Assembly: GCA_017634975.1 (NCBI GenBank)
Contig: JAGBMJ010000039.1
Coordinates: forward strand, 1 to 64,000
Direction of reading: 5' to 3'
Length of the DNA: 64,000 nt
Origin: Lachnospiraceae bacterium
GTDB taxonomy: Bacteria; Bacillota; Clostridia; Lachnospirales; Lachnospiraceae
Positions 6,484 through 43,529 of this stretch are shown piece after piece. Every line of letters begins with the position of its first letter. Position 1 is the first letter of the stretch. The notes under the pieces were generated by a model. The model searched no databases. It had not been told where the DNA came from and worked only from the letters and a program-made list of their open reading frames with translations. Position numbers and translations under genes: made by a program.

Positions 6484-6507
6484 ATGTTCAGTTTTTGGGA
6501 GGTTAGA

Positions 6508-14623: not shown

Positions 14624-15889
14624 ATGTCGGAGCAAATTTCGGGTGTGTGTATTTTTTTAATTGTACTATTTATTGTGATTTCTATTACCATTTTTATATA
14701 CAGACATATAATTCATCCTCCGATTGTTGAATTTCCTGTAAAGGGTGGAGGGTTGGCTTTTGTTTCTCTGTACAAGGGAGACAAAGGGTATGATAAATTT
14801 AAATTTATCAGAATAAAAGGTAAATGGAAACGTGATTTTGAAGATGCAGAAGAGTTAGTTAAATATTATATATTAGTTATCTTAGCCCTTCCAATATTTC
14901 TAATCATTAATTTTGGACTGGCGGATGTTTTACTGATATTAAAAATATCATTTTTTATTGATGCATTTACGGCAGTCCTTCTGTTTGGGCTTCCACCTTT
15001 ATTAACATTGGAAGCTTATATAGTTTTGATGCTGTATATAAGAAAACAACGATTACAGAACCTGGATTCCGAAGGCCGGAAAGAATATATATATGAAACT
15101 GCAGAGATAAAAATAAAGTTTATTTTAAAAGTATTCGTTTTCGTTATGTGGTTTGGGATTCTGTTGTCAATCTTGTTAGTGATGTCCGGAACGATTCTGT
15201 GTTTGATGAGCATAAAAGAATCGCTGCCCGGCGCTGTTTTTGCGTTGGGCACCTCGGGTGTTACAATCTTTGTGGCCGGAGCACTCCTTTATGGATGGAT
15301 CTGCTTGCGAAGGCCTCTTATGGGAGATTATTCCTGCAATGTTCCGATCGATATTGCCGGAAATCGGAAAAAATATGATCCGCAATATTTACTGGGGCGG
15401 CTTAACGATAAGCGCAGCAATGTGATATTGCTGAAAAATAAACAGGGGCAGGTAAGAATCTACGGAAGCGGAAATGAATATGTATTGGAGATCCGATCCG
15501 CGAAAGAAGAGGGTGAGAGATACTATCATTTAATGCAGCTCGATACCGATTCGGTCGTTCCGGTTTTGGATGATACACCTATTGTGATCGAAAATAAATG
15601 GAATGAGAAATTTCCGGTAAGAAAACAGTGGTTGGTGGATAAGGAAACGATCAGTGCGTTTCTTCAAAAACTCTATTCCTGCAAGGATATTTCGGCTGCT
15701 ATGGATGGTTTTTCATTTGGAGATACGACGGAAGAGGTTAATAAGCTGATCGAAGCGGATGCTTATATTGTTCCGGAAATCCCTCTAGACTGGCCTGTGG
15801 GCGGATTACAAAGCAATATGGGACAGGCATGGTTTAGACGTAAAGAGGTTCGGTTACAGCGTGCACTGAAGATTTTCGAGAGAGGATAA
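14624..15889 (+). CDS. Hypothetical multi-span membrane protein
   Basis: I do not recognise this 421-residue protein. It has an N-terminal anchor (residues about 7-27) and a soluble stretch with the motif PPIVEFPVKGGGLAFVSLYK. Two pairs of membrane helices follow (about 85-150 and 165-225), then a soluble domain of about 190 residues ending in positively charged helices. The first 600 bp are clearly more AT-rich than the flanking transporter genes, suggesting separate ancestry. A decayed paralogue lies immediately upstream. It is the first intact gene in the insertion between the two importer ATPases. GGAG at 14612-14615 supports the start. Confidence 0.75.
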   Translation: MSEQISGVCIFLIVLFIVISITIFIYRHIIHPPIVEFPVKGGGLAFVSLYKGDKGYDKFKFIRIKGKWKRDFEDAEELVKYYILVILALPIFLIINFGLADVLLILKISFFIDAFTAVLLFGLPPLLTLEAYIVLMLYIRKQRLQNLDSEGRKEYIYETAEIKIKFILKVFVFVMWFGILLSILLVMSGTILCLMSIKESLPGAVFALGTSGVTIFVAGALLYGWICLRRPLMGDYSCNVPIDIAGNRKKYDPQYLLGRLNDKRSNVILLKNKQGQVRIYGSGNEYVLEIRSAKEEGERYYHLMQLDTDSVVPVLDDTPIVIENKWNEKFPVRKQWLVDKETISAFLQKLYSCKDISAAMDGFSFGDTTEEVNKLIEADAYIVPEIPLDWPVGGLQSNMGQAWFRRKEVRLQRALKIFERG

Positions 15890-18113: not shown

Positions 18114-18869
18114 ATGGAAAGATCCGATACCCTTGTGGAACTGAAAGATATAGTGGTCAGTTTTGGGAAAAAAGAGAAAAAGAAAACGGTATTGAACGGC
18201 ATCACATTTACGATCGGGCGTGGAGAGATCGTCGGGCTGGCCGGAGAAAGCGGCAGCGGAAAAAGTACGATTGCCAAGGCTATTTTGGGAATGGTGCCTG
18301 TAGAAAGCGGAAATATCACGCTGAATACCAAAGCACCGCAGATGGTCTTTCAGGATCCGTACAGTTCCTTGAATCCTGCAAAGACCATCGGCTGGATCAT
18401 GCAGGAACCGCTGAAACTCGCCCCGAACCGGGATCCGGAGGCAAAAATACCCGATGCCGACACAAGAAAAGCAAAAGTGGCCGAAATGCTGCGGGAAGTG
18501 GGGCTGGACGAAAGCTATATGGCGCATAAGCCCCGGGAACTTTCCGGAGGACAGCGGCAGAGGATCTGCATCGGTACGGCGCTCATGACCGAGCCGGAGC
18601 TGCTGATCGCAGATGAGCCGGTCTCCGCATTGGATGTGACCATTCAGGCCCAGGTGCTTGCACTGATGAAGGAACTGCATGAAAAGAAAAACCTGGCAAT
18701 GCTCTTTATTTCACACGATCTGCGGACAATGTATCATTTCTGCGATCGGATCCTGATCCTGAATAAAGGGAGGATCGTTGAGGAAGGGGCGCCGGATACG
18801 CTGTATCGTGATCCGAAAGAAGAATATACAAAACTATTACTGAAGAGTGCCGGAATTTCTAAAACATGA
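18114..18869 (+). CDS. Peptide/nickel ABC transporter ATP-binding protein (DppF/OppF type)
   Basis: This 251-residue ATPase has Walker A GESGSGKST, Q-loop MVFQDPYSSLNP (a DppF/OppF hallmark), signature LSGGQRQR, Walker B LLIADEPVSALD and switch FISHDLRT. It would complete the importer formed by the genes at 9808-14203, normally as the gene directly after ATPase D. Here 3.9 kb intervene. It has its own promoter, and GGAGG at 18100-18104 supports the start. It is shorter than typical OppF since the C-terminal extension is missing, as with ATPase D, consistent with co-evolution of the pair. Confidence 0.9.
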   Translation: MERSDTLVELKDIVVSFGKKEKKKTVLNGITFTIGRGEIVGLAGESGSGKSTIAKAILGMVPVESGNITLNTKAPQMVFQDPYSSLNPAKTIGWIMQEPLKLAPNRDPEAKIPDADTRKAKVAEMLREVGLDESYMAHKPRELSGGQRQRICIGTALMTEPELLIADEPVSALDVTIQAQVLALMKELHEKKNLAMLFISHDLRTMYHFCDRILILNKGRIVEEGAPDTLYRDPKEEYTKLLLKSAGISKT

Positions 18870-18931
18870 AATTCCGACATTTCTTTGCGTTTATACTGTT
18901 TAGTCAGGATCAAGTGAGGAGGAGAAAAAGG

Positions 18932-20773
18932 ATGTGTATTCAAAGATTCGAAAGCATTAGAGCAAAAAGGCTCTTGACGCTGGGATGGTGTCTGATCACT
19001 TGCGCCGGATTGGGTGCGTGCAATACGGAGAGAGGCAGGATGCATCCGGATTCTACGGAACAGATGTCGGATGCTACGGCAGAATCGGAAGATGCCGTCG
19101 AAAAATCGGATGCCAGCGGAAAAAAAGAGGATGTTGTGGAAGATGAAACTGAAGTATCAAAGGATTCGGTTGAAAATGCGGAAGAATCGGAACAGATTGA
19201 GCCTGATGATATGAAAGGTGATGCGATCAGCCGACTTATCGGCAGATCTGTGGAATGCAATGAGCCGCAAGAGGATAGTGATTATGCGTTTTTGGCGGAA
19301 AAGCTTGTCGTTTCCTGGCTTAACACGTTACGGACAGAAGAGGGCAGATATGAGCTGAAAGAATTTACGCCCAGTTATACAACAGTGGAAGCCAAAGGCT
19401 ATGTTGGGAATGGAATAGAGTTTTGCGCATCGGTATATTTTGAAACAGACATAGAAGATGATGATTCGGCTTTTTATAGTCAGGACGGTTATGATACTTT
19501 TTATCATTATTATCATGGCCCAATGGTCTATGTTCGCTGCCATTATGAGAATGGGCACTGCGAGGTGGTTGATTATGACGAGGCCTTTCAGGCAGATCTC
19601 ACCGGGGATCTGAACGGAATAACCGCAGATACCAGCACATATCCAACGTTTTGGGAATTTTATGATGACGAGGAAAATCTGGAGAAACTGTTAAGTGAGG
19701 TAAACGAACCGGAGGCTGCGGACTCTGTAGCAGGATCTCCCATTATGCTCTCGGATGGTCAAATAGGCTATGTCTTTATATCGCTCTGGAACGGCACAGC
19801 ATGGGAACAAGGCGGCAAGTCCTACGGGGTATATGGCAATTATTTCTTTAACTCAAAAGAGGCAACCTATTCATCACCTATTGATTACAAGGATGGGGCC
19901 GGGGCCTGCACGGAACAATATAGAGATTCGTTTGATCTTATATGGGACGACTATAATGGTGACGGTAATCCCGAATATGCCATTAAACAGGATGCAGAGG
20001 ATGAGGATGCAGACGGAGCGCGTTATGAAGTGCGCTGTATGTCCAATGACATGACGCCCCGTGACAGCCGTTTTGATTTTTATATGGCCGGCAGGCATGA
20101 AGAATGTATTCATCTGCAAATGACAGAATCAGGAGTTGTGGTTTGGAATCTGGTGAATGGCAATATGACACCAAATCAGAGTATTGATGACTTCAGAATG
20201 TATTCCAGACGGTATTATCTGCCGGGAAACATGAGGGGATATACCGATGAAGATGAGATAAAGTGCTTTTTTTGGAATAATACGGGCAGAGATATATATA
20301 CCGGAAACACCTACTATATAGAGCAGCTGGACGGCAATAACTGGGTTAAAATATCGGAAGAACGACAGATAAACAGCGTAAAATGCCCTGCTTACAGAGA
20401 TGTGACGCTTACTTTTGATATTTCAGGTATCCCGCGCACTAGCGGCGAATATCGCATTGTGCTCGGAGATGAGTGGGTTTGCGGCGGTTTTTATATACGT
20501 GGAGACAGGCTCAGTGCCCGGATCCTTCAGGATGATACCTCTATAACCATTATAAACGACGGCACGGCATCTCTTAGAATCAATGAACTGTGTTGGATAA
20601 AAGACGGAGAAGTGGCGGGTAATATCGAAAATGACGGGAAAAGAGATTTTGGCATCGTTCCGGCCGGGGATGCAAAAAGGATAGAGATCAATCCCCTGCC
20701 TTCTTTTGATGGAATGTATTCTGTCAGGGCAGATGTTGGCATGATCATCGAAAGTGATCCGGTGGAATACTGA
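18932..20773 (+). CDS. Large lipoprotein of unknown function
   Basis: This is a 613-residue exported protein with Arg/Lys-rich start, hydrophobic segment and lipobox LGAC near residue 30. An acidic Ser/Glu/Asp linker follows to about residue 105. A middle region contains DDYNGDGNPEY, a calcium-loop-like DxNxDG motif. A C-terminal part near 430-520 looks like an immunoglobulin-like beta domain (GNTYYIEQLDGNNWVKI, then SGEYRIVLGDEW). I cannot name the family. The ATG at 18932 follows GAGGAGG (18916-18922). A longer frame from 18866 overlaps the ATPase stop and would bury the signal sequence. Probably co-transcribed with the ATPase. Confidence 0.75.
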   Translation: MCIQRFESIRAKRLLTLGWCLITCAGLGACNTERGRMHPDSTEQMSDATAESEDAVEKSDASGKKEDVVEDETEVSKDSVENAEESEQIEPDDMKGDAISRLIGRSVECNEPQEDSDYAFLAEKLVVSWLNTLRTEEGRYELKEFTPSYTTVEAKGYVGNGIEFCASVYFETDIEDDDSAFYSQDGYDTFYHYYHGPMVYVRCHYENGHCEVVDYDEAFQADLTGDLNGITADTSTYPTFWEFYDDEENLEKLLSEVNEPEAADSVAGSPIMLSDGQIGYVFISLWNGTAWEQGGKSYGVYGNYFFNSKEATYSSPIDYKDGAGACTEQYRDSFDLIWDDYNGDGNPEYAIKQDAEDEDADGARYEVRCMSNDMTPRDSRFDFYMAGRHEECIHLQMTESGVVVWNLVNGNMTPNQSIDDFRMYSRRYYLPGNMRGYTDEDEIKCFFWNNTGRDIYTGNTYYIEQLDGNNWVKISEERQINSVKCPAYRDVTLTFDISGIPRTSGEYRIVLGDEWVCGGFYIRGDRLSARILQDDTSITIINDGTASLRINELCWIKDGEVAGNIENDGKRDFGIVPAGDAKRIEINPLPSFDGMYSVRADVGMIIESDPVEY

Positions 20774-29833: not shown

Positions 29834-29867
29834 AAGCGGCAGAGCTTATGAAGATCTGCCGCTTTTT
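29834..29867 (+). terminator. Terminator after fakA
   Basis: Perfect 10-bp arms AAGCGGCAGA (29834-29843) and TCTGCCGCTT (29855-29864), 11-base loop, then TTT. It overlaps a spurious in-frame start at 29848 of the next gene and thus supports the 29893 start. Confidence 0.8.
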
Positions 29868-29892
29868 GTCTTCTGCTTTTGAGGATTTGAAA

Positions 29893-31983
29893 ATGAACCT
29901 GAAGGATGATATTACAAAGATCCGCGGGATCGGCGAGAAAAGTGCAGAGGCGTTTTATGCAGCAGGGATCTATACCGTAAACGGTCTGCTGCATTATTTC
30001 CCGAGAAACTATTCTTCCATGCCGGAGGCGGTTAAGATCAAAGACATCACCAAAGAAGGCAGGCGCACGGTGTATGGCAAGATCATGAACACACCGGCGA
30101 TGTTCGGACGGGGCGGCAGGACGATCCTGTCTTTTCTGATCAGCGACGGAACGGGGCGTATCAAGGTCAACCTCTTTAATATGCCTTATATGCGTAAATC
30201 CATTCAGCCGGGCCGGCAATGCTATTTCTCAGGGCTGTGTACGTTGAAAGGCACGGAAATACTGATGAGTCAGCCAAAATTTCTGACGGAGGAACAATAC
30301 GAAGAATCCTGCGGCAGACTGAGTCCGGTATATCCGTTACGAAAAGACCTGACGAATACAAAACTGCAGAAGGCATTGAAAGAGGTGCTGCCGTTATGTA
30401 CTGAGATCAAAGAATACCTTCCGTCGGAGATCCTCGCCGGGGAAGATCTGCTCCCGATCCCGCAGGCCATACGTCAGATGCATTTTCCGGAAAACATGGA
30501 AGATGTATACGCAGCCAGAAAACGCCTTGCTTTTGATGAATTTTTTCTTTTTCTGGCCAGAATGGAGCTTTTGAAACAAGGACCGGAAAAGCGGGAGAGC
30601 CTATACGTCTGCGCCGAAGAATGTTCAAAATCAGCAGCGGAACAACTGCTCTCCAAACTGCCTTATGAACTGACCGGTGCCCAGAAGCGAACGATCCTGG
30701 AGATCCAAAAAGATCTGGCTTCCGGCTATTGCATGAACCGGCTGGTGCAGGGGGATGTCGGATCCGGTAAGACGGTTGTCGCTTTTGCGGCAGCGCTTGC
30801 AGTGGTGGCTGCAGGCTCTCAGGCAGCTCTGATGGCACCTACCGAAGTGCTGGCAGCACAGCATTATAAAGATATCTGCAAAATGAGTGCTGACTATGAT
30901 CTGCCGTTTAAACCGGCATTACTGACCGGCTCGGTCAAGGCTTCCGAGAAGAGACAGATTAAAGAAAAAATTGCGGCCGGTGAGATCAATTTTATGATCG
31001 GCACGCAGGCGCTGATCCAGGAGGACGTGGAAGCAAAGGACCTGGCACTGATCATCACAGACGAACAGCATCGCTTTGGCGTGCGGCAGCGTATGGATCT
31101 GGCAGGAAAAGGCCGTGAACCACATGTGCTCGTGATGTCTGCTACCCCCATTCCGCGTACACTCGGACTGATCCTGTACGGAGATCTGGATGTCTCTCTG
31201 ATCGATGAGCTTCCTGCCAAACGCCTGCCCATCAAAAATACCGTGGTGGACGGATCCTACCGGACCAAATTGTACCAGTTTATCCTTAAACGCATCAGCG
31301 AAGGCAGACAGGCCTATATTATCTGTCCTATGGTGGAATCCGGCGAAGACGAATGTGAAGCTACGGAAGGGCTTGCCAACGTTGTCGATTACTCCGAGGA
31401 ACTGCGCAAAAAGTTTCCGCCCGAAGTGACAGTAGATATGCTGCATGGTCGTATGAAACCGGCTGAAAAAAATGAAGTGATGCGGCGATTTGCCTGCGGG
31501 GAAACCAAAGTGCTGGTATCTACAACGGTTGTGGAGGTCGGTGTCAATGTACCGAATGCAACGGTGATGATGGTCGAGAATGCCGAGCGTTTCGGTCTGG
31601 CACAGCTGCATCAGCTGCGCGGACGAGTCGGACGCGGTGAGTGGCAGTCTTATTGCATCTTTGTATCCGGAGGAGAGGACGGGGAGATGAGCAAACGGAC
31701 GCAGGAGCGCCTGCACATCCTGTCTGAGACCAACGACGGTTTTAAGATCGCGGAGGAAGATCTGAAACAACGTGGCCCCGGAGACTTTTTCGGCTTAAGA
31801 CAGTCGGGACTTCCGTATTTTAAGATCGCGGACATCTATACCGATGCGGATCTGCTCAAACGTGTCAAGCCGATCGTGCAGAAGATCTGCAGGGAGGACT
31901 CCGAAAGTCTTCGCAATCTCCGGGCGGCTTTGATCGAGAAAGAAGAGATGGATTATATTGATTTCCATGGTATTTGTCTTTGA
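29893..31983 (+). CDS. recG: ATP-dependent DNA helicase RecG
   Basis: This 696-residue helicase remodels stalled forks and Holliday junctions. It has an N-terminal wedge/OB domain (GEKSAEAFYAAGIYTV, VNGLLHYFPRNY), Walker A GDVGSGKT, DEQH box, motif III SATPIPRTL and motif VI QLRGRVGRG. The length fits the family. GAGGA at 29881-29885 supports the start at 29893. The stop is followed within a few bases by a promoter of the next, unrelated signalling locus. Confidence 0.96.
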   Translation: MNLKDDITKIRGIGEKSAEAFYAAGIYTVNGLLHYFPRNYSSMPEAVKIKDITKEGRRTVYGKIMNTPAMFGRGGRTILSFLISDGTGRIKVNLFNMPYMRKSIQPGRQCYFSGLCTLKGTEILMSQPKFLTEEQYEESCGRLSPVYPLRKDLTNTKLQKALKEVLPLCTEIKEYLPSEILAGEDLLPIPQAIRQMHFPENMEDVYAARKRLAFDEFFLFLARMELLKQGPEKRESLYVCAEECSKSAAEQLLSKLPYELTGAQKRTILEIQKDLASGYCMNRLVQGDVGSGKTVVAFAAALAVVAAGSQAALMAPTEVLAAQHYKDICKMSADYDLPFKPALLTGSVKASEKRQIKEKIAAGEINFMIGTQALIQEDVEAKDLALIITDEQHRFGVRQRMDLAGKGREPHVLVMSATPIPRTLGLILYGDLDVSLIDELPAKRLPIKNTVVDGSYRTKLYQFILKRISEGRQAYIICPMVESGEDECEATEGLANVVDYSEELRKKFPPEVTVDMLHGRMKPAEKNEVMRRFACGETKVLVSTTVVEVGVNVPNATVMMVENAERFGLAQLHQLRGRVGRGEWQSYCIFVSGGEDGEMSKRTQERLHILSETNDGFKIAEEDLKQRGPGDFFGLRQSGLPYFKIADIYTDADLLKRVKPIVQKICREDSESLRNLRAALIEKEEMDYIDFHGICL

Positions 31984-32032: not shown

Positions 32033-35000
32033 TTGGGGGATTATCTTGGAGTACTGTTTGATTCTTCTTTTTATATCACAGGCTTTCTGATCTGCCTGTG
32101 TTGTTTGATTTACACCCGCATTCAGGGGCATGTCGGCCGTACCCACAATCATTTCTTTATATTTCTGCTGCTCGATGTTATGGTGAATGCACTGGCTTGT
32201 ACCATCAATGACTTTACCACACCGCTGGCGGGAACAGATACCGTTGCCGCTTTTTTCCAGGATACGGCAGCGTTTCTTTACTTTTTTACGCATTCTGCTC
32301 TGGGGCCGATGTTTTATGTCTATCTGGTCTATACCACCGGTTCCATCTATATCCACCGTCGCAAAAAAAGACGATTTGCCATGATCATGGTGCCGTTTCT
32401 TTTGATGGAACTTGCTGTGATCGCTAATTTCCGTAATCATTGGCTCTATTATCTGGATGCCGACCGTATCTATCATCGGCAGAACGGGATGTATTTTATC
32501 TATATTTTCTCTGCTTACTATTTTCTGCTGGCGATCATCGAAAGCCTGCGGTATTGGCGCTCCGAAACCAGACGGCGCCGCAGCGGCATGATGTATATGC
32601 TTGTGATCACGATGATTGGCGTACTGGTCCAGATGATCTGGCCACAGCTGGAGGTGGAGATATTTGCGGAGAGCCTGGCTCTGCTTGGTGTGATGCTTTT
32701 TATTGAAGATGAAGATGATCGCATTGATGCGACCTGTCATCTTTATAATCGTGTAGCCCTGATCCAGGATCTGAACGGTATGTTTATGATGAAACAGTCC
32801 TTCGATCTGATCGTGGTACACATCTATAATCCGGAAATGCTCAACAAGGTAACCGGAAATGTCACAACGGATGAATTGCCCAATACCGTCGGCGATTATC
32901 TGAAAAATCTAAACCGTCATTATGAAGTGTATCGCATCTCACTGAATTCCTTTGCGTTAAAAAATGTGCGGGCCGATGAGGCGAAAAATGCCGAGATGCC
33001 GGAACTCATCCAAAAACGTTTTGCAACGCCATGGGAATACGAAGGGGTGGAGATCCGCTTAAATGCGCTGGTGATGCAGGCCTCGTATCCCGGAGAGATC
33101 CATTCGGTGGAAGATGTCTATCGCATGACCGATGCCTCGCCCGGTGTGATCCCCGAAACAAAAATACTTCGTGGACATGAGCTGGATTATCTGTCCAGGG
33201 AAGCCGAGATCTCACTTGCCCTGCGGCGGGGATTTCAGGAGCACTCCTACGAAGTGGTATACCAGCCGGTTTATTTTCTCGAAAATATGAGTATCCATGC
33301 TGCGGAAGCACTGATCCGTCTGCACGATGAAAAACTTGGCGATATCCCGCCGGCTGAGTTTATACCGATCGCAGAACGTGACGGCATCATAGACGAGGTC
33401 GGAAAATTTGTGCTTGAAGAAGCCTGTATGTTTCTCAGCAGTGGTCTTCCGGGACAGATGGGGATCGAATACATCAGTGTCAACCTGTCGGTAGTGCAGT
33501 GTATGCGAAGCGGATTTGCTGCCTTTGCCAAGGATCTGGCAGCACGTTACGATATCGCGCCGTCTCTGGTCAGTTTTGAGATCAAGGAATCTACGGCGGT
33601 CGGGGACCAGCCGATCCTGTTAAATGCGATCCGTTCCCTTCGCAATTACGGTTTCCGCTTCTCCATGGACAGCTACGGGACCGGTTTTTCGGATATGCAT
33701 GCCCTGTATGCATTGGATTTTGACCTGATCAAGATCGACCGGAGTATCTTAAACCGGGCGGAAGACAGTGTGGGGCGCATTGTGTTGGAGAGCTGCATTC
33801 GTATGATACGTGAGATGAAACGCCGTATCCTGGTGGAAGGTGTCGAGACCAAAGAACAGATCGAAATGCTCAAAAAACTGGAGGTAGATTATGTACAGGG
33901 GTATTACTCCTCGAGACCGATCACCAAGAATGAGCTTCTCGGCATCCTGCGTGTGACCGAACTGGCGCGTATGGAAGAGCAGCGTGCCAATGCGGCCAGT
34001 GAGGCAAAATCCAGTTTTCTGGCCAATATGTCCCATGAAATCCGCACGCCCATCAATGCCGTGCTCGGTATGAACGAGATGATCCAAAGGGAATGTGATG
34101 AACCGGCGATCATGGAGTATGCAAAAGAGATCGAAACCGCCGGCCGCAACCTGCTCTCCCTGGTCAATAATATTCTGGATTATTCCAAGATCGAAGCCGG
34201 TGAGATGGAGATCGTAGAAGCGGAATATGATCTCAAAAAAGCGCTTGGAGATGTGATCCGTTCCACGTATCGTAAAACGCAGCAGAAACAGTTATCCTTT
34301 CGCGTAAATATTTCCGAAGAATTGCCGGCCAGACTGTACGGCGATGAGTTTCGACTCAAGCAGATCCTGACAAATCTGTTGAATAATGCGGTCAAATATA
34401 CCAAAGAGGGCGGCGTGCGGCTTTCCGTTGAAGGACAATGGTATTCGGACGATGAGATCCTGATGAATGTCGCCGTGGAAGATACCGGCTGCGGTATCCG
34501 GGAAGAAGATCAGGATAAGCTTTACGAGATGTTCCAGCGGCTGGATATGGAACGCAACCGTACGATCGAAGGAAGCGGCCTGGGGCTGGCCATCAGCTAT
34601 CATCTGCTGCAGATGATGCAGGGAGAGATCTCTGTGGAAAGTATATACGGATCCGGGACGACGTTTCATGTCAGCCTGCTCCAGAAAGCGACCACAAAGA
34701 CCAGGATCCGTCCCTTCAAGGCAGATGAAATCAAAGCGATCTTTCGGGATGCCGGCGGTACCAGACGTTTTGAGGCGCCGGATGCGAAGCTGCTGATCGT
34801 AGATGATACGCCTTTGAACCATACGGTTATCAAGGAGCTGCTCAGGACAAGCAAAATACAGATCGATTCGGCATTTTCCGGAGAGGAAGGTCTTGCGTTG
34901 GCGGAGGTAAAATACTACGACATCATCTTTCTTGACAAAAAGATGCCGGGAAAGAGCGGGGCTGAGACACTGGCAGAACTGCGGGAAAACAAGACCAGCG

Positions 35001-35170
35001 CGAGCCGCCGGTCACCGGTCATCTCCTTAAGCGCCGACAACACGCCGGGGATCGTGGATCCGGAACATAAGGGCGGATACGATGATTATCTCGGAAAACC
35101 GGTAGAAAGCGAGAAACTGACAGAGACGATCCTGCGATTTCTGCCGGAAAGCAAGGTATTTTATATTTAG
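32033..35170 (+). CDS. Membrane EAL / histidine kinase / receiver hybrid, paralogue 1
   Basis: This is a 1045-residue membrane protein. Residues about 10-230 hold 6-7 spans of a sensor region. A relic GGDEF domain follows (LYNRVALIQDL, but SLNSF where GGDEF would be). The EAL domain covers about 400-650 with AEALIRL, SVNLS, FEIKES, VEGVET and QGYY, but DSYG replaces DDFG (D546 kept, Ser at 547), so c-di-GMP hydrolysis is doubtful. A HisKA/HATPase kinase follows with H668 (MSHEIRTP), N box NLLNNAVKY and GSGLGLAI. The C-terminal receiver has D968 (FLDKKMPG). It starts with TTG at 32033 after AGGGGG. It leads a tandem of three paralogues. Confidence 0.88.
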   Translation: MGDYLGVLFDSSFYITGFLICLCCLIYTRIQGHVGRTHNHFFIFLLLDVMVNALACTINDFTTPLAGTDTVAAFFQDTAAFLYFFTHSALGPMFYVYLVYTTGSIYIHRRKKRRFAMIMVPFLLMELAVIANFRNHWLYYLDADRIYHRQNGMYFIYIFSAYYFLLAIIESLRYWRSETRRRRSGMMYMLVITMIGVLVQMIWPQLEVEIFAESLALLGVMLFIEDEDDRIDATCHLYNRVALIQDLNGMFMMKQSFDLIVVHIYNPEMLNKVTGNVTTDELPNTVGDYLKNLNRHYEVYRISLNSFALKNVRADEAKNAEMPELIQKRFATPWEYEGVEIRLNALVMQASYPGEIHSVEDVYRMTDASPGVIPETKILRGHELDYLSREAEISLALRRGFQEHSYEVVYQPVYFLENMSIHAAEALIRLHDEKLGDIPPAEFIPIAERDGIIDEVGKFVLEEACMFLSSGLPGQMGIEYISVNLSVVQCMRSGFAAFAKDLAARYDIAPSLVSFEIKESTAVGDQPILLNAIRSLRNYGFRFSMDSYGTGFSDMHALYALDFDLIKIDRSILNRAEDSVGRIVLESCIRMIREMKRRILVEGVETKEQIEMLKKLEVDYVQGYYSSRPITKNELLGILRVTELARMEEQRANAASEAKSSFLANMSHEIRTPINAVLGMNEMIQRECDEPAIMEYAKEIETAGRNLLSLVNNILDYSKIEAGEMEIVEAEYDLKKALGDVIRSTYRKTQQKQLSFRVNISEELPARLYGDEFRLKQILTNLLNNAVKYTKEGGVRLSVEGQWYSDDEILMNVAVEDTGCGIREEDQDKLYEMFQRLDMERNRTIEGSGLGLAISYHLLQMMQGEISVESIYGSGTTFHVSLLQKATTKTRIRPFKADEIKAIFRDAGGTRRFEAPDAKLLIVDDTPLNHTVIKELLRTSKIQIDSAFSGEEGLALAEVKYYDIIFLDKKMPGKSGAETLAELRENKTSASRRSPVISLSADNTPGIVDPEHKGGYDDYLGKPVESEKLTETILRFLPESKVFYI

Positions 35171-35210
35171 GACATCCCATCATTTTAAGAAAGGATATGC
35201 AGGGTAAGTA

Positions 35211-37130
35211 ATGACGATCGGGTTATTCAATCAAACCGCTATGCTTTTGGGTGCTGCACTGTTATCGATCACGATACTGGTCTACAGCATGATCCAAAAC
35301 CGGGTCAGCCGTCAGCAGAACCGGCTGTTTTTGGCGATGGTCCTGAATGTTCTGATCGCTTCGGTGGCCAATCTCATTCGTTTCTATGCTTCCCCGTATG
35401 CAACCACGTCCGGGATCGCCAATATCGCTGTCAGAGCCTCACAGCTTTGTTATTATGCATTGCACAATACCCTTGCCATGATCTTCGGCATCTATGTGAC
35501 CAAAGTAAATTCTTCATGGGTACGGATGAAGGTGTGGATGTATTATCTATACGTAGTCCCCTGCATGATCCTGGAATTCCTGATCCTGACCAATCCATGG
35601 CATGAGATGTTCTTCTACTTTGATGCACAGATGAATATCCACCGGAATTTTATGGTATTACCGATGTATGCCGTATCCCTGGGGTATATCCTGTTTGCAC
35701 TTTCCAATCTGCTGTTCCACTGGAATGCGATCACAGGCAAGAGACAGATGGCGCTGGTATTTTATTTCGGGCTGGTCTTTGCCGGAATGATCATCCAGAT
35801 GCTCAACAGCAGTATCAAGAGCGAATTGCTCACGGAAGCCCTTGCCCTGATCGGTGTCATGCTTTTTATCGAAAAGGAAGATGACCGCATCGACCTGACG
35901 TGCGGCGTATATAACCGCGGAGCTATGATCGCGGATCTGCGAAACTATTTCCGCATGGGGCAGCGTACCCAGATCATCGGTATCCGTCTGACCAATGATG
36001 ACCTGATCCTGCGTCTTGCCGGGGAAAGCAGTCTGGATACTTTGAACCGTACGGTCACCGATGTTCTGAAGGAATGCTGTCCATGGTATGAGATCTATCG
36101 TGCCACACCAAGCGGTTTTATGATCATCAATACCGGTACACCGGAAAGTGCAGTTACCCTTTCGGAAAAGATCTATGTACGCTTTTTGGACGGGATCTAT
36201 ATGCCCGGTGCCGATACGCCGATCACAGCCACACTGCTCCGTGCCTCCATACCGGAGGATATGCTCTCGGTTTCGGACGTGCTGCTGATGTGCGATGCCT
36301 CCCTGCCGGAGAAAAAGCAGAAAGGCATCATCCATGGAAAACATCTTGCCTATCTGAAACGTAATACGGAGATCGAAGATGCATTGAACCGCGGACTGGC
36401 CGAACGAAATTTTAAGATCTTCTACCAGACCGTACACCGCAGCGACGATCTGAAACCGTTTGCAGTCAAGGCACTGGTACGTCTGAAGGATCCCGAACTC
36501 GGAGAAGTGATGCCGGGCGAATTTATTCCCCAGGCGGAGCGTACCGGCCAGATCCATCCGCTCGGCTGTCTGATCCTCGAAGAAGTCTGCGATTTTATAC
36601 GCAGCGGGGTACCGGCCAGACTGGGACTGGAATTGATCAATGTCAACCTGTCATTTGTGCAATGCTTGCAGCCGGGTTTTGCCGAGCGGATCACGAGTAT
36701 CGTGGAAAGCTATCAGGTACGGCCATCCATGCTGAATTTTGAGATCACCAAGCCGGTGAACAAAGATGATTACGAGATCCTGAACCGCATCATAAAAGAT
36801 CTGAAAAACAGAGGCTTTCTGTTCTCGATGGAAGATTTCGGAGCAGGGTATTCCAATATCCAGTCGATCCTGGCACTGGATTTTGATGTGGTAAAAGTCG
36901 ACAAATCCATTCTGTGGGCGGCTACGGAATCGGAGATGGGACGTATCGTATTGCGGAGTTCCATACGCATGATCCGGGATCTGAACCGCAAGATCCTGGT
37001 GGAAGGCGTGGAAAACGAGGAGCAGATCAAACTGTTAAAAGAACTCGGTGCGGATTATCTGCAGGGATATTATTTTTCCAGACCGGTTTCGGGAGAACAG
37101 CTGGAAGCAAACATGGTTTCGATGAGATAA
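35211..37130 (+). CDS. Membrane protein with degenerate GGDEF and EAL domains, paralogue 2
   Basis: This 639-residue paralogue of the flanking genes ends after the EAL domain, so it has no kinase. About six spans lie at residues 10-225. The relic GGDEF has ATPSGF in place of the motif. In the EAL domain the signature is KALVRL with Lys at residue 420 instead of the metal-binding Glu, and DDFG reads EDFG (Glu 541). VEGVEN and QGYY remain. Catalysis is therefore very unlikely; it may bind c-di-GMP or partners. It starts at an ATG 40 bp after paralogue 1 and 9 bp before paralogue 3, and is probably co-expressed. Confidence 0.88.
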   Translation: MTIGLFNQTAMLLGAALLSITILVYSMIQNRVSRQQNRLFLAMVLNVLIASVANLIRFYASPYATTSGIANIAVRASQLCYYALHNTLAMIFGIYVTKVNSSWVRMKVWMYYLYVVPCMILEFLILTNPWHEMFFYFDAQMNIHRNFMVLPMYAVSLGYILFALSNLLFHWNAITGKRQMALVFYFGLVFAGMIIQMLNSSIKSELLTEALALIGVMLFIEKEDDRIDLTCGVYNRGAMIADLRNYFRMGQRTQIIGIRLTNDDLILRLAGESSLDTLNRTVTDVLKECCPWYEIYRATPSGFMIINTGTPESAVTLSEKIYVRFLDGIYMPGADTPITATLLRASIPEDMLSVSDVLLMCDASLPEKKQKGIIHGKHLAYLKRNTEIEDALNRGLAERNFKIFYQTVHRSDDLKPFAVKALVRLKDPELGEVMPGEFIPQAERTGQIHPLGCLILEEVCDFIRSGVPARLGLELINVNLSFVQCLQPGFAERITSIVESYQVRPSMLNFEITKPVNKDDYEILNRIIKDLKNRGFLFSMEDFGAGYSNIQSILALDFDVVKVDKSILWAATESEMGRIVLRSSIRMIRDLNRKILVEGVENEEQIKLLKELGADYLQGYYFSRPVSGEQLEANMVSMR

Positions 37131-37139
37131 GGGGCATTT

Positions 37140-40100
37140 ATGGCAGACTACATCTCACAATTGCATGAAACGGGAATACTGATCGCTGCATTCCTTGTAG
37201 CGTTCTGCAGCCTGACCTATACGCTGTTCCAGAAGCGGACGACCAAGGTGCAGAACCGTCTCTTCGTGTGGCTTCTGCTGATCATCATGATGAACAGTGC
37301 CTGCGAAGTGTGTACGGTATTCCAGACACCCTATTGCAGAGAATATCTGTATGCCCGGGTATTGGTGGAAGTATCCATGTTCCTGTATTTCCTTATGCAT
37401 ACGATGCTCTGTCCTCTGATGTTCTTTTATGCACTGTTTGCCGGCGGTGTCATGATCCAGCGGCGTTCGCTCGGGAAGGGGTACCATCCGGTGTTCTTTA
37501 TCCCGTTTGTTTTTTCGGAATTATTGGTGGTCATGAACCCGTTTACCGGATGGGTATGGTCCTTTTCCACAGACTATGAATATCATCGAAACGGCGGCAT
37601 CTGGGTCATCTATGCGTGCGCCGGGATCTATTTTGTACTTGCGGCCGTGACGATGATCATGCGCCGGAAAGCGATCGGGAGAAACAAACGCTTTGCCCTG
37701 CTGATCTTCTTTATCGTCAATGTGATCGGGCTGCTGCTGCAGCTGGTGAATGGACAGCTGCATACGGAACTTTTTGTACAGGCTCTTGCGCTTAGCGGCG
37801 TCATGCTCACGATCGAGAACGAAGACGAACGGATGGATCTGTCGACCAAAGTCTATAACCGCGGAGCCCTGATGACGGATCTCAACACTTACCTGCGGCT
37901 GCGCAATCCGTTTTTTGTAATCTGTATCCGGATCACCAATTCCGACATGCTGCATCGTCTGCTCGGGGCGATCGATTCCGATCTGCTGCTGCAGAAAGTG
38001 GCAGAGTTTCTGAAGTCCATACATCCGGGATATTATATCTATCGACCGACCGTGGATACCTTCCTGTTGATCGTATTGGAACCGGATGCGCGCGTACACG
38101 ATCTGGCAGAACAGATCCGGAAACGTTTTGACGAGAGCTTTATGTTCCAGGGGGCAGAACTGATGCTGCAATCCACACTGATGCTGGCGCGTATACCGGG
38201 AGCTTTTTCCACACCGGAAGATATCCTGCTTTTGTGCGACGGACCGCTGCCGGCCAGAAATGCCGGGCCGATTTTGGAAGGAAAAGACCTGAACTATCTG
38301 CTGCGCCGTGCCGAAGTCGAAAGTGCGCTTCACCGCGGGCTTTCCGAAGGCGGATTTGAAGTGTATTATCAGCCGATCTACCGTATGCAGGGCATGTCGA
38401 TCTACTCGGCAGAGGCGTTGCTGCGTCTCAAGGACAGCCGGATTGGCAATATCATGCCCGATGAGTTTATTCCCATTGCCGAGCAGAATGGTCTGATCGA
38501 CCGTCTGGGCGATTATGTTCTGGAAGAAGTATGCATATTCTTATCCAGCGGTATCCCCACCGAAATGGGTCTGGAATGCATCAGTGTCAATCTGTCGGTA
38601 TTGCAGTGCCTGCAGCCGGATTTTGTAAAGCGTGTCATGGCGATCACCAAAAAATATGAGGTGAATTCGAGATATATAAATTTTGAAATCACAGAATCTG
38701 CAGCGGCAAGTGATTATGAGGTGCTCTCCGACGTGCTCCGGGAACTGAGGCGGTGCGGCTTCCTGTTCTCTCTGGATGATTACGGCATCGGCTACTCCAA
38801 TGTGCGTTCCATATTCTCGCTGGATTTTGATGTGATCAAAATCGACAAATCCATTCTCTGGGAAGTGCAGAGTGAAAATGAAAAGGAAACAAATAATGGC
38901 CAGATCATCCTGGAAAATTCGGTGCGGATGCTGCGGGAAATGAAGCTGAAGATCCTGGTGGAAGGTGTGGAAACCGCAGATCATCTGGAACTGCTGGAGC
39001 AGCTGCAGGTGGATTATCTGCAGGGATTCTACTTTTCCAGACCGGTCAGCAAGAACGAACTTCTCGGTATTCTGCGCGTGACGGAGCTGACCCGCATGGA
39101 AGAGCAGAGAGCGCGTGCGGCCAGCGAAGCCAAATCCAGCTTTCTGGCCAATATGTCCCATGAGATCCGCACCCCGATCAATGCCGTGCTGGGGATGAAT
39201 GAGATGATCCTGCGCGAGAGCAAAAACAAGCGCATTCTGGATTATGCGCACAATATCGAGGGGGCCGGGCGCACACTTGTGTCCCTGATCAATGATATCC
39301 TGGACTTTTCCAAGATCGAATCCGGCAGTATGGAGATCGTGGAAACGGAATACGACCTGAGTTCCGTGATCAATGATGTAGTCAATATGATCAATATCAA
39401 AGTCAGAGAAAAAGGGCTGGAGTTTAAGATCAAGGTGGATCCGGATCTGCCGGATGCCCTGTTTGGGGACGGTATGCGTTTCCGTCAGATCATGGTCAAC
39501 ATCCTGAACAATGCCGTGAAATATACCCCTCATGGCAGCATCACCCTGGAACTGACCGGCAGACTGCAGGAAAAAGACCGAGTATTGCTCAAAGCGGTGG
39601 TCACAGATACCGGCATCGGTATCAAAGAAGAAGATCTCGGCAAACTCTTCCGCAAATTCCAGCGTTTGGATATGACACAGAACAAGAGCATTGAAGGCAG
39701 CGGGCTGGGGCTGGCGATCACATACAACCTGCTGCAGATCATGCATGGGGAGATCGAGGCACGCTCAACCTACGGAAAGGGCTCTACCTTTACCGTGACA
39801 CTGCCGCAGAAGATACAGCGCTTCGACGCGATCGGTGATTTCCACAGGCGCTATCAGATGAATGTGAAGGAACAGCAGGCGGCTTACCATGAGAGCTTCC
39901 GGGCGCCGGATGCGCGGATCCTCGTGGTGGACGACACGCCGGTCAATCATACCGTGCTGAAAGAGCTGCTGAAGAAGACGAAGATTCTTATTGACTGCGC
40001 CTATTCCGGCAAGGAATGCATCGAAATGGTACAGCATGAGAAGTACGATCTGATCTTTCTGGATTACCGGATGCCGGAGATGGACGGTATCGAAACACTG

Positions 40101-40961
40101 CACTTTATGAAAGCTCTCGAAAACTATCCGAACCGGATGACTCCGGTAGTGGCACTGACGGCCAATGCCGTGGCCGGTGCGCGTGAAAACTTCCTGCGGG
40201 AAGGATTTGACGATTATATGATCAAACCGGTGGAGAGCCAGCGGCTGGAAGAAATGCTGATCCATTATCTGCCGTCCGAGAAAGTGCATCTGGTATCACA
40301 GCAGGAGGAGGAAGAAGAGCAGGAATCTGTCCGGACAGACGACTGGATCAACCGGCTGGGGGATCTGGATACCGAAACGGCGCTCAAAAACTGCGGTTCC
40401 GAAGACGGCTACCGGAGTGTGCTCAAGATCTATTATGACGGTCTGGAAACCAAGGCCGAGGATATCCGGAAGTATTATGATGCGCAGGACTGGGAGAATT
40501 ATACGATCCAGGTACATTCCCTGAAAAGCTCTTCCCGTGTGATCGGAGCAACTCAGCTCGGAGAAATGGCTGCGGAGCTGGAAAAAGCCGGAAACGAACA
40601 CGATATCGAACGGATCGCGGAAAAAACAGCGCCAATGCTTGAGAAATTCCGTGCTCTGGGGCTTGTCCTGAGTGAGATTTTTGAGGCAGATGCCGGGGAT
40701 GTCATTGAAAATGCGGCACATGCGAGTGAATATACCGTCGAAAAGGAAGAAATTTCGCCTTCGATGCTAAAAGATGCCTACGAAATGATGAAAGATTTTG
40801 CAAAATTGTACGATTATGATAATATGTTATACATACTGGATTCGCTGAAAGAATATAAACTGCCGCCCGAAGATGAAGAACGCGTCCGGGAAATCCGAAA
40901 GAAGACAGAGGAATTCAAATGGGAAATGATATTGGATTTACTGAAGAAGACCAGCTGCTGA
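37140..40961 (+). CDS. Membrane EAL / histidine kinase / receiver / HPt hybrid, paralogue 3
   Basis: This 1273-residue protein is the most complete of the three. It has a 6-7 span sensor, then a relic GGDEF (PTVDTF). The EAL domain is intact: AEALLRL with E425, SVNLS, FEITES, DDYGIGYS, IKIDKS, VEGVET and QGFY. The kinase follows with H674 (MSHEIRTP) and GSGLGLAI, then a receiver with D975 (FLDYRMPEMDG) and SALTAN-like ALTANAV. The HPt domain has H1126 (VHSLKSS), followed by a charged helical tail. It is predicted to hydrolyse c-di-GMP and run a phosphorelay. AAGGGG sits before the ATG. It overlaps the next gene by 43 bp. Confidence 0.9.
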   Translation: MADYISQLHETGILIAAFLVAFCSLTYTLFQKRTTKVQNRLFVWLLLIIMMNSACEVCTVFQTPYCREYLYARVLVEVSMFLYFLMHTMLCPLMFFYALFAGGVMIQRRSLGKGYHPVFFIPFVFSELLVVMNPFTGWVWSFSTDYEYHRNGGIWVIYACAGIYFVLAAVTMIMRRKAIGRNKRFALLIFFIVNVIGLLLQLVNGQLHTELFVQALALSGVMLTIENEDERMDLSTKVYNRGALMTDLNTYLRLRNPFFVICIRITNSDMLHRLLGAIDSDLLLQKVAEFLKSIHPGYYIYRPTVDTFLLIVLEPDARVHDLAEQIRKRFDESFMFQGAELMLQSTLMLARIPGAFSTPEDILLLCDGPLPARNAGPILEGKDLNYLLRRAEVESALHRGLSEGGFEVYYQPIYRMQGMSIYSAEALLRLKDSRIGNIMPDEFIPIAEQNGLIDRLGDYVLEEVCIFLSSGIPTEMGLECISVNLSVLQCLQPDFVKRVMAITKKYEVNSRYINFEITESAAASDYEVLSDVLRELRRCGFLFSLDDYGIGYSNVRSIFSLDFDVIKIDKSILWEVQSENEKETNNGQIILENSVRMLREMKLKILVEGVETADHLELLEQLQVDYLQGFYFSRPVSKNELLGILRVTELTRMEEQRARAASEAKSSFLANMSHEIRTPINAVLGMNEMILRESKNKRILDYAHNIEGAGRTLVSLINDILDFSKIESGSMEIVETEYDLSSVINDVVNMINIKVREKGLEFKIKVDPDLPDALFGDGMRFRQIMVNILNNAVKYTPHGSITLELTGRLQEKDRVLLKAVVTDTGIGIKEEDLGKLFRKFQRLDMTQNKSIEGSGLGLAITYNLLQIMHGEIEARSTYGKGSTFTVTLPQKIQRFDAIGDFHRRYQMNVKEQQAAYHESFRAPDARILVVDDTPVNHTVLKELLKKTKILIDCAYSGKECIEMVQHEKYDLIFLDYRMPEMDGIETLHFMKALENYPNRMTPVVALTANAVAGARENFLREGFDDYMIKPVESQRLEEMLIHYLPSEKVHLVSQQEEEEEQESVRTDDWINRLGDLDTETALKNCGSEDGYRSVLKIYYDGLETKAEDIRKYYDAQDWENYTIQVHSLKSSSRVIGATQLGEMAAELEKAGNEHDIERIAEKTAPMLEKFRALGLVLSEIFEADAGDVIENAAHASEYTVEKEEISPSMLKDAYEMMKDFAKLYDYDNMLYILDSLKEYKLPPEDEERVREIRKKTEEFKWEMILDLLKKTSC

Positions 40962-41770
40962 TGGGGCTTCTGAAGGAGATCGATGAAAAAGAAGAAAAAA
41001 AACAGGTCTATAATAAGGTGCTCCTGATCCGTAAGGAAGAAACCTTCCTGGTCAATACCATCAAGAATAACCTGGATAAGAACGGCTTTTTGTTTGTGGA
41101 AACCGCCATGAGCGTCCGGGAACTGAACGAAAAGAAGGATTCGGCCGAACTGATGCTTATGTATGTGGACGATACCATTGACGAAGCACGGGATGTTCTG
41201 GTTTTTGTAAAGGATCTGCTTCTGGAAGAAGGCAAGGAGCTGGTTCTCCTCGGGGATCGTAATGAAGTGGTCTCCGTCGAAAAAGTCATTCCGAAAGAAC
41301 TGATCGCCGGTATATTTGAACGGCCTTTTGATATGCGTGCCATTATGGACCGCGTCGGAGATTTTCTGATCCAGCAGAGGATGCAGCAGAATAAGAAGAT
41401 GATCCTGATCGTCGATGACGATCCGACCTATCTGAAACTGATCAAGGAATGGCTGAAAGACGACTATCGCGTCAGTATGGCCAATTCCGGTATGCAGGCG
41501 ATCACCTGGCTTGCAAACAACTGTGCGGATCTGGTCCTCCTGGACTATGAGATGCCCACGATCAAGGGCTCCAAAGTGCTGGAAATGCTGCGCTCCGATG
41601 CGCAGATCGCCGACACTCCGGTCATGTTTCTGACCGGCAAGAGCGATAAGCAGAGCATCATCGATGTGCTTGCTCTGAAACCGGCCGGTTATCTGCTCAA
41701 GAGCATTGACCGGAAAACACTTTTGGAAACGCTGAATAAATTTTTTGTGGAACAGAGGTATAAAAAGTAG
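40919..41770 (+). CDS. Receiver protein with degenerate first and functional second receiver
   Basis: This 283-residue cytoplasmic protein has two receiver-like halves. The N-terminal half (about residues 28-150) has the receiver fold pattern but lacks the acidic pocket and a phospho-Asp. The C-terminal half is complete: ILIVDDDPTY, D209 in LVLLDYEMP, and a lysine in YLLKSID. There is no DNA-binding or enzymatic output. It could be the terminal or shuttle acceptor for the HPt domain upstream. GAGGAA at 40908-40913 supports the ATG at 40919, giving a 43-bp overlap. An alternative in-frame ATG at 40961 would overlap by one base but has no ribosome site. Confidence 0.85.
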   Translation: MGNDIGFTEEDQLLMGLLKEIDEKEEKKQVYNKVLLIRKEETFLVNTIKNNLDKNGFLFVETAMSVRELNEKKDSAELMLMYVDDTIDEARDVLVFVKDLLLEEGKELVLLGDRNEVVSVEKVIPKELIAGIFERPFDMRAIMDRVGDFLIQQRMQQNKKMILIVDDDPTYLKLIKEWLKDDYRVSMANSGMQAITWLANNCADLVLLDYEMPTIKGSKVLEMLRSDAQIADTPVMFLTGKSDKQSIIDVLALKPAGYLLKSIDRKTLLETLNKFFVEQRYKK

Positions 41771-41775
41771 GCATT

Positions 41776-42720
41776 ATGAATAAATTTCTGAATAAACTGG
41801 AACTCAAGTGGGGCAAGTATGCGATCGAGCGCCTGCCCATGTATATGTTGATCTTATATGCGATCGGCTTCGTCATGCAGATCGTGAACCCGAATATTAT
41901 TGATGTGATTTCATTAAACCCGTATGCCATCCTGCACGGACAGGTATGGAGGCTGTTCAGCTGGCTGTTGATCCCGCCCAGAGTCCTTTCCGATCCGGGT
42001 TCGTTGTTTTTTGGCCTCATTGCTTTGTATTTTTATTATTCGATTGGCATGTCGCTGGAACGCACATGGGGAGCTTTCAATTTTAATTTATATATTTTTT
42101 CGGGCATTCTTTTTACCGTTTTGGGAGCCTTTATCATGTTTTGCTATATCGAACTGAGCGGAAACGGGCTGACCGCGGTCACAGATGCACGATTAACGGC
42201 ACTCAACGGGGAACTGCCTGCGATCTACGGCGGCAGCTATGTCTATCTGTCTCTGGCCGCATTCTTTTCGACCTATTATATCAATATGTCGATCTTTTTG
42301 GCGTTTGCGGCGACTTATCCGGATATGCAGGTGCTGCTGATGTTCTTTATCCCGATCAAAGTGAAATTTCTCGGAGTGGTCTATCTGATCATCCTGATCG
42401 CTGAAGCAGCCCAGATGTGGCCGTATGGTCTGTTTGTGATCGGCGCATCACTTTTAAACTTTTTTATATTTTTTATCGCAAACCGGCATCGTACACTTGG
42501 CACGCCGCAGATGCGTGCGCGGCAGAAGCAGTTTCGCAGACATATGCGTGAAGCAACCGTACGGCAGAATGTGATCGCCAAGCACAAATGTGCGATCTGC
42601 GGACGGACCAGCGACGAATATCCGGATCTGGAATTCCGTTTCTGTTCCAAATGTGCCGGCAATTACGAATACTGCCAGGATCATCTGTACACACACAGGC
42701 ATATCGAAAAGAATGGGTAA
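41776..42720 (+). CDS. Rhomboid-like membrane protein without catalytic residues, zinc-ribbon tail
   Basis: This 314-residue protein has six spans. The order of motifs is rhomboid-like: an HGQVWRLFSW block at the first loop and SLERTWGAFNFN after the second or third span. The GxSG serine and catalytic histidine are not seen, so it is probably a pseudoprotease. The cytoplasmic C-terminus (about residues 270-310) carries CAICGRT, FCSKCAGNYEYC and HLYTHRH, a probable zinc site. The function is unknown. It begins 5 bp after the receiver gene, implying co-expression with the signalling locus. A dispersed repeat follows. Confidence 0.75.
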   Translation: MNKFLNKLELKWGKYAIERLPMYMLILYAIGFVMQIVNPNIIDVISLNPYAILHGQVWRLFSWLLIPPRVLSDPGSLFFGLIALYFYYSIGMSLERTWGAFNFNLYIFSGILFTVLGAFIMFCYIELSGNGLTAVTDARLTALNGELPAIYGGSYVYLSLAAFFSTYYINMSIFLAFAATYPDMQVLLMFFIPIKVKFLGVVYLIILIAEAAQMWPYGLFVIGASLLNFFIFFIANRHRTLGTPQMRARQKQFRRHMREATVRQNVIAKHKCAICGRTSDEYPDLEFRFCSKCAGNYEYCQDHLYTHRHIEKNG

Positions 42721-42788: not shown

Positions 42789-43529
42789 ATGGCACAGCCT
42801 ACGGAACAGGAATTTATACAGAAGATCAGTGAACTGAAGGAAACCGGGATCCTGCAGGGCGGATATCTTACGGAGGAGCAGATCGAGGAGGTCTTTCCGG
42901 CACTGACACAGGAGCAGCGAAGCCTGCTTCTGGATTATTTCAAAGAAAACAAGATCGGGATCGGGGAGGCACTTCCGGATTCCGAGATCTTAAACGAGGA
43001 GCAGCAGTCACATTTTCATATGTATCTGGAAGAGCTGGAAGAGATGGAGACCATCGACAATGACCTGCGCCGCGTATTGATCATGAATGCGTTAAACGGA
43101 GACCGTGACGCGAAGGAACGCCTCACCAATTCCTATCTGCGTACCGTCATCGATATCGCAAAGCTCTATACCGGACAGGGCGCGGATCTGCCGGATCTGG
43201 TCGGAGAAGGTAATGTAGCGCTGGCCATGGCGATCGCCGGACTGGACAGCATCGAAAAGCCGGAAGACTGCGATGAGATGGTGAGCCGCAGCATCATGAA
43301 TGCGATGGAAGAACTGATCGGCGCAGAAAACGACCAGCTCGAAGCCCTGCAGGAGATGGTGGAGATCATCGGCAAAGTATTGAATATCGCAAAACCTCTG
43401 TCGGAGGAACTGCGCCGTAAAGTGACGATCACAGAACTGACACAGGAGAGTGAACTCACTGAAGAAGAGATCAAAGATGCGATCCGTTTTTCCGGCGACT
43501 TAAGAGAATATATCGCGGAGGAGTCATGA
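42789..43529 (+). CDS. Sigma-70 region 2-like protein
   Basis: This is a 246-residue soluble acidic protein. Residues about 97-145 resemble sigma factor regions 1.2-2: DRDAKERLTNSYLRTVIDIA and DLPDLVGEGNVALAMAIAGLD, where true sigma-70 proteins have DLIQEGNIGLMKAV. A later segment (RRKVTITELTQESELTEEEIKDAI) looks like region 3. No region 4 helix-turn-helix is apparent and the N-terminal 90 residues are unassigned. It may be a divergent sigma factor or a sigma-derived regulator. It overlaps the next gene by 4 bp and lies close to the hybrid kinase locus. Confidence 0.7.
   Translation: MAQPTEQEFIQKISELKETGILQGGYLTEEQIEEVFPALTQEQRSLLLDYFKENKIGIGEALPDSEILNEEQQSHFHMYLEELEEMETIDNDLRRVLIMNALNGDRDAKERLTNSYLRTVIDIAKLYTGQGADLPDLVGEGNVALAMAIAGLDSIEKPEDCDEMVSRSIMNAMEELIGAENDQLEALQEMVEIIGKVLNIAKPLSEELRRKVTITELTQESELTEEEIKDAIRFSGDLREYIAEES

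Follow-up and report, generated by a model that had tools for sequence, protein, structure and literature searches.

Why would three membrane proteins with EAL domains stand in a row, two of them running on into a histidine kinase, and is cyclic di-GMP (c-di-GMP) turned over or sensed there? We addressed this question for four genes, here called P1 to P4, in a 64,000-nucleotide stretch of Lachnospiraceae bacterium DNA (the window); it belongs, as contig C122, to a draft genome of 4.36 Mb whose contamination is estimated at 7.46%. The best explanation of the array, to which we give about an even chance of being right, is a c-di-GMP-gated membrane phosphorelay in which two of the three EAL domains would serve as receptors. 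Domain order, phosphorelay residues, fixed EAL differences, constraint and gene order are read directly from the sequence.

Residue sets of the three EAL domains

According to Pfam, P1 has the order seven transmembrane helices (7TM), degenerate GGDEF, degenerate EAL, HisKA, HATPase and receiver (REC), and P3 has the same plan with an added histidine phosphotransfer (HPt) domain (Table 1). P2 consists of 7TM, a GGDEF-like fold and a degenerate EAL and lacks a kinase; its predicted fold starts with seven long helices, followed by a GGDEF-like and an EAL domain, and aligns with solved GGDEF-EAL pairs with high Z but also a high root-mean-square deviation, because two domains are aligned at once. 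By eye, no GGDEF motif is recognisable in the GGDEF regions of P1 to P3. The four frames in the window are intact, tightly packed and all on the forward strand. On these points the original prediction was accurate: its coordinates, domain orders and spacings (40 bp, 9 bp and a 43-bp overlap) agree with the open reading frame (ORF) and Pfam results, its relic GGDEF was borne out, and its three paralogues of one sensor, GGDEF and EAL order were recovered by Pfam, the fold model of P2 and the tree described below. Between the paralogues, the 7TM parts are the most divergent (26-31% identity, versus 47-53% for EAL).

We scored 13 EAL positions (EAL Glu, EALxR Arg, N, two Glu, DD, G, K, D, the EGVE pair and QG Gln) in the arrays of 12 genomes of the genus. 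P3 keeps all 13 in 12/12 arrays, while the set is complete in none of the 12 copies of either P1 or P2. In P1 only the second Asp of DD is changed; P2 carries the three replacements listed in Table 1, plus one additional change each in genomes G029 and G031. Metal-binding acids are missing from both P1 and P2 in every array, through different substitutions. For comparison, of 21 further EAL ORFs in the window's genome, 18 have the complete set (the 21 include three pairs of near-copies and exclude a short EAL place, C58). We also chose 11 ligand-side positions from known motifs, part of which the FimX contact list in PMC7288161 covers. Of these 11, ten are kept by P1 in 12/12 arrays and one in 11/12; in P2, eight are kept in 12/12, two in 11/12 and one in 10/12.

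An enzyme that has become a receptor would be expected to lose catalytic residues and retain the ligand side, and the pattern suggests such a change for P1 and P2. Moreover, P2 has a KALVR-type motif, with Lys in 12/12 arrays, and the c-di-GMP receptor LapD likewise has Lys for the EAL Glu (KVLSR; PMC5567048). The array had been predicted to fuse c-di-GMP turnover to a phosphorelay. This holds for the residues of P3 only; since P1 and P2 are without metal-binding acids in all 12 arrays, they are better read as putative receptors. Judged by these residues, what is new here is a fixed division of labour among three EAL paralogues across 12/12 arrays.

The relay parts are conserved as well. P1 and P3 have intact kinase and receiver motifs, and the HPt His of P3 is likewise intact; among the 12 array copies, all hybrid-kinase motifs (HisKA His, N box, G boxes, REC Asp and HPt His) are found in P3, and all except HPt in P1, of which the G031 copy is interrupted. 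P4 ends in a CheY-like REC, as expected of the receiver gene predicted here. Its N-terminal half has conserved TFxVNxI, LVYIKDL and ERPxDM motifs, is by eye devoid of an acid pocket, and is perhaps a pseudo-receiver: BarA and RcsC models align over both halves, and hhalign places half against half in register, but with a probability of 1.1%. No output domain was found in P4 by Pfam or NCBIfam, and among the 25 best NCBIfam matches for each of P1 to P4 none is above cut-off.

Table 1. Positions in the window of the array genes, their domains, EAL replacements and flanking genes.
Feature	Position	Strand	Basis or remark
P1	32033..35170	+	ORF, Pfam
P1 degenerate GGDEF	32723-33133	+	Pfam, sub- or near-threshold
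P1 degenerate EAL	33218-33919	+	Pfam
P1 stretch matching the P3 EAL-to-HisKA junction	33638-34204	+	alignment A1
P1 Ser547 replacing second Asp of DD	33671..33673	+	Ser 10, Arg 1, Gly 1 in 12 arrays
P1 HisKA	34004-34201	+	Pfam
P1 HATPase	34340-34678	+	Pfam
P1 REC	34793-35131	+	Pfam
P2	35211..37130	+	ORF, Pfam, predicted fold
P2 degenerate EAL	36378-37085	+	Pfam
P2 Lys420 replacing Glu of EAL (KAL for EAL)	36468..36470	+	Lys in 12/12
P2 Lys514 replacing conserved Glu	36750..36752	+	Lys 11, Arg 1 in 12 arrays
P2 Glu541 replacing first Asp of DD	36831..36833	+	Glu in 12/12
P3	37140..40961	+	ORF, Pfam
P3 degenerate GGDEF	37833-38174	+	Pfam, sub- or near-threshold
P3 EAL, all 13 scored residues	38325-39044	+	Pfam, residue scoring
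P3 EAL-to-HisKA junction, linker nearly invariant	38745..39329	+	alignment A1
P3 HisKA	39129-39326	+	Pfam
P3 HATPase	39465-39812	+	Pfam
P3 REC	39918-40259	+	Pfam
P3 HPt	40419-40619	+	Pfam
P4	40919..41770	+	ORF, Pfam
P4 conserved N-terminal domain	about 41006-41368	+	conservation
P4 CheY-like REC	41402-41734	+	Pfam
Presumed recG-like helicase gene, left flank	29848..31983	+	orthologue adjoins P1 in 11 other array genomes
Presumed rhomboid-like membrane protein, right flank	41776..42720	+	conserved flank

Conservation, origin and constraint of the array

The EAL-to-HisKA junction occurs in 14 of 35 genomes of the genus, twice (P1 and P3) in 12 and once in two (G014 and G033). Orthologues of the left-flank gene, which we take to be recG, and of P1 to P4 are all present in those 12; the row is unbroken by contig ends in ten and split over two contigs in G010 and G032. 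An accidental tandem, which the original prediction had expected if the order were absent from close relatives, is excluded by this conserved gene order and by the tree. P1, P2 and P3 each form one clade (Shimodaira-Hasegawa-like approximate likelihood-ratio test, SH-aLRT, 100), and each clade shows the same split into five and seven species, so that one triplication preceded the array species. The fused kinases lie on one side of a branch (support 96) relative to six other sampled kinases, in a tree with 11 of the 12 P1 rows (the interrupted G031 copy was omitted). In G019, 1.5 kb separates recG from the rhomboid-like gene, and the array is absent between them; for G034, G014, G002, G027, G013 and G011 no empty site is given, as recG fell outside the stretch fetched around the rhomboid-like gene.

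Constraint was estimated from ratios of nonsynonymous to synonymous change (dN/dS) between G000 and three of eleven relatives, G032, G021 and G006, respectively; the values were 0.022, 0.022 and 0.050 for the P1 EAL, 0.062, 0.094 and 0.115 for the P2 EAL, and 0.035, 0.044 and 0.048 for the P1 kinase, and for the P3 EAL 0.034 (G032) and 0.037 (G006), the split P3 of G021 being left out, all of them rough ratios since dS was mostly near or above 1. The P1 EAL is below the P1 kinase in two of three comparisons and about equal in the third. Rough as the ratios are, neither the P1 nor the P2 EAL has the appearance of decay. It might be argued that P1 and P2 are tandem duplicates whose EAL domains have been drifting slowly since duplication, with no special function; both are without catalytic residues, and frames are interrupted in two draft genomes (P1 of G031 and P3 of G021). 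Yet the same positions are changed in 12/12 species even though the identity of P2 to the window's copy over the whole protein is 42-86%, dN/dS is far below 1 and the gene order is fixed, and we regard slow decay as very improbable.

A putative c-di-GMP-gated relay weighed against other readings

In the favoured scheme, the EAL domains of P1 and P2 would have lost hydrolysis and kept the surface that contacts c-di-GMP. P1 would be a receptor kinase for c-di-GMP, and P2, lacking a kinase, a pseudo-EAL subunit of the LapD kind, perhaps pairing with P1 or P3. P3, the only member with an HPt domain, would probably sense and also degrade c-di-GMP, because its EAL residue set is complete. Ligand state and the 7TM signal would together set kinase activity through the nearly invariant linker between EAL and HisKA, and phosphate would be handed from His to Asp within P1 or P3, next to the HPt domain of P3 and finally to the P4 receiver. 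For c-di-GMP binding, P3 activity, mixed dimers, the phosphate route and P4 as its end point, this scheme is what we infer.

Fusions of EAL to a kinase outside the array bear on this scheme. We searched 397 genomes of the family and 391 of the class, scoring eight candidates per genome, and obtained matches in at least seven (family) and at least five (class) genomes, the window's own included. At least nine full fusions lie outside the array, in G014, G033, G060, G169, G237, G293, G364, G668 and G788, and a P4-like gene adjoins all of these except that of G364 (8/9). None of the nine has a complete EAL set, and none keeps the catalytic Glu of EGVE, whose loss is treated as inactive in PMC12900916. 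The fusions of G014, G033, G060, G169 and G237 form one clade in which this Glu is the only loss. Four kinase-free relatives met in the same searches, not a systematic sample, have complete EAL sets. In both G668 and G788, a kinase-less, degenerate 7TM-GGDEF-EAL gene follows the fusion and its P4-like gene; these copies cluster with the G293, G668 and G788 fusions (SH-aLRT 100), which marks a separate duplication in another genus that independently repeats the P2 design. In G364 the fusion is followed by a kinase-less copy, both degenerate. Four further candidates suggested by tblastn ranges (L062, L088, L100 and L063) have no EAL in their kinases by Pfam, a check made on these four from at least 80 loci found with kinase patterns.

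We consider it rather improbable that the EAL is an output, with P2 as a regulatory subunit and with the 7TM part and the phosphorelay controlling the phosphodiesterase of P3, and any residual one of P1, so as to reduce c-di-GMP locally. A complete, strongly constrained P3 in 12/12 arrays would fit such an output, as would the kinase-less 7TM-GGDEF-EAL proteins with complete EAL in the same genome (L176/L177). Input domains, however, usually sit before the kinase, as the EAL does here; the nine outside fusions are without the catalytic Glu, and kinase, REC, HPt and P4 are kept intact.

A bolder version of the favoured scheme would make the array a comparator, in which P1, P2 and P3 form mixed dimers and binding versus cutting of c-di-GMP sets the direction of the relay. 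P1 would then be a receptor kinase missing the second metal ligand, P2 a metal-free receptor with a lysine substitution and P3 a hydrolase-kinase-HPt protein, and EAL would be a recurrent kinase input with several enzyme-to-receptor conversions and repeated kinase-less partners. We hold this only tentatively and think it doubtful as a whole.

Several observations weigh against a c-di-GMP-gated relay. In the fusions of G293, G364, G668 and G788 many residues are gone, among them ligand-side ones, and their EAL may not bind c-di-GMP at all; because of these losses, it appears that an EAL of this family can do without c-di-GMP. On a tree of 42 rows (G021, G029, G031 and G033 left out), the label complete or degenerate needs three changes, of which the high-support branches force only one; it is the difference in the residues lost that speaks for separate losses. 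Within the array, P1 keeps the catalytic Glu, so that weak hydrolysis by P1 is possible. The loop-6 Thr of P3 is Ile or Val in 12/12 arrays, and P3 activity may for this reason be low, complete residues being no proof of activity. In the comparison with G006, the P1 EAL is no more constrained than the P1 kinase, and the roughness of the ratios itself counts on this side.

The same four fusions, together with the GGDEF relics of P1, P2 and P3 and the marked divergence of the 7TM parts, would also fit a GGDEF-EAL block that is a mere transmission spacer without nucleotide binding, such that three membrane sensors feed different outside signals into one relay. This we consider unlikely, though less so than an output role: in the array genus each ligand-side position is kept in 10-12 of 12 arrays, and the constraint on the P1 EAL, set beside that on its kinase, speaks against a spacer.

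If the c-di-GMP-gated relay is true, a second messenger would be tied directly to kinase input within one polypeptide, and the array would amount to a natural experiment on the enzyme-to-receptor switch of EAL: in one operon, the same scaffold is complete once and inactivated twice by different replacements, fixed across the genus. Both the switch and EAL-kinase coupling would become directly testable with three small proteins.

Genomic setting and comparison with known systems

In keeping with the favoured scheme, the window's genome has 52 GGDEF and 25 EAL matches and five c-di-GMP-I riboswitches. It also has flagellin genes; flagellin is present in 35/35 genomes of the genus. Some of its EAL genes are paired as near-duplicates across contigs (C11/C102, C42/C106 and C118/C137), in line with the contamination estimate. 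On C11, L184:1685-5555 is a second tandem of 7TM-type EAL proteins, in which a 647-aa copy with 6/13 EAL residues changed overlaps a 671-aa copy with the complete set; a rhomboid-like gene (5552-6748) follows, as with the array. A recent foreign island was rejected for the array itself, given an even GC content (0.45-0.52 over 26-48 kb), no tRNA found in the window, and conserved flanks. Promoter and terminator predictions were no more numerous than in shuffled sequence.

The right-flank protein, presumably rhomboid-like, has no Pfam or NCBIfam family above cut-off. In G001 a gene with mechanosensitive-channel transmembrane repeats lies between P4 and the rhomboid-like gene, and G025 and G031 have the same gene after P4, judged by its start sequence; at L041:17115-18341, four such repeats (PF05552) occupy this place, which is not so in the window. 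A 246-aa protein (42789-43529) has weak matches to sigma-70 regions 2 and 3 below the Pfam cut-off, and it adjoins the rhomboid-like gene in 10 of 12 non-array genomes of the genus examined. Elsewhere in the window we noted an Erythromycin-esterase family protein (7385-8704; PF05139, 5e-31; family name only) and proteins of 651, 421 and 635 aa (244-2199, 14624-15889 and 18866-20773) without Pfam match at 1e-6.

Pairs of a kinase-REC-HPt protein and a P4-like protein also occur with other sensors (L154, L155, L069 and L093), and for this reason the special parts of the array are its EAL input, the EAL inactivation and the triplication; it resembles a common relay whose c-di-GMP-type input is unusual and triplicated. 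At L093:1242-8498 three genes stand in a row, for a P4-like protein, a protein whose end looks HD-GYP-like by eye, and a kinase-REC-HPt protein, another meeting of c-di-GMP-type enzymes with this relay. No shared DNA-binding output gene emerged near P3-P4 pairs, there being no repeated neighbour by eye in G237, G060, G169, G293 and G364, with few neighbours scanned by Pfam. P4-like genes about 46% identical and with no adjoining kinase (L055:8781-9653, L056:9225-10094, L057:9683-10453 and L058:1513-2283) lie within a few genes of flagellar hook-type ones. There is a Flagellin_N match at G034:C6:253985, with matching places in G026, in G027 and near the locus of G004. A link of P4-like proteins to motility is possible.

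How does the array compare with known systems? P3 resembles BarA/TorS/ArcB-type hybrid kinases in its HisKA-HATPase-REC-HPt order with conserved phospho-residues, and BarA and TorS are its best NCBIfam models, though the scores fall far short of the equivalog cut-offs (367.3 of 890 and 338.8 of 676.5, respectively); it differs from that type in its EAL-type input and its separate partner P4. P2 resembles 7TM-GGDEF-EAL membrane phosphodiesterases, as does the N-terminal half of both P1 and P3; the kinase-free relatives L176/L177, G217 and G704 have the catalytic set complete. P1 and P2 share with LapD and FimX the loss of catalytic EAL residues and the kept ligand surface, and the predicted fold of P2 matches both. 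LapD has a periplasmic domain and HAMP, for which the array proteins have 7TM instead. Membership of P2 in the LapD family was rejected, because it scores 66.3 bits on the NCBIfam LapD equivalog model, whose cut-off is 1020. Neither LapD nor FimX, both receptors with a dead EAL (PMC7288161), carries a kinase, whereas P1 and P3 are joined to one.

The original prediction also held the array to be the window's best candidate for an undescribed system. In its favour, the open-licence full-text literature searched yielded no description of EAL joined to kinase input as here; the relay with its P4-like partner, occurring with other sensors, is not particular to the array. The nearest precedents couple c-di-GMP to a hybrid kinase by other means. 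In CckA of Caulobacter, which c-di-GMP controls, the ligand binds the HATPase domain, and the passage on it in PMC7288161 mentions no EAL, whereas the array has an EAL-type input. SgmT of Myxococcus xanthus is a hybrid kinase that is a c-di-GMP receptor by virtue of a degenerate c-di-GMP enzyme domain (PMC3509222); that domain is a GGDEF with an I-site, C-terminal to the kinase in a cytoplasmic protein, while in the array GGDEF precedes both EAL and kinase, and the EAL stands before the kinase in membrane-bound proteins that come as three paralogues.

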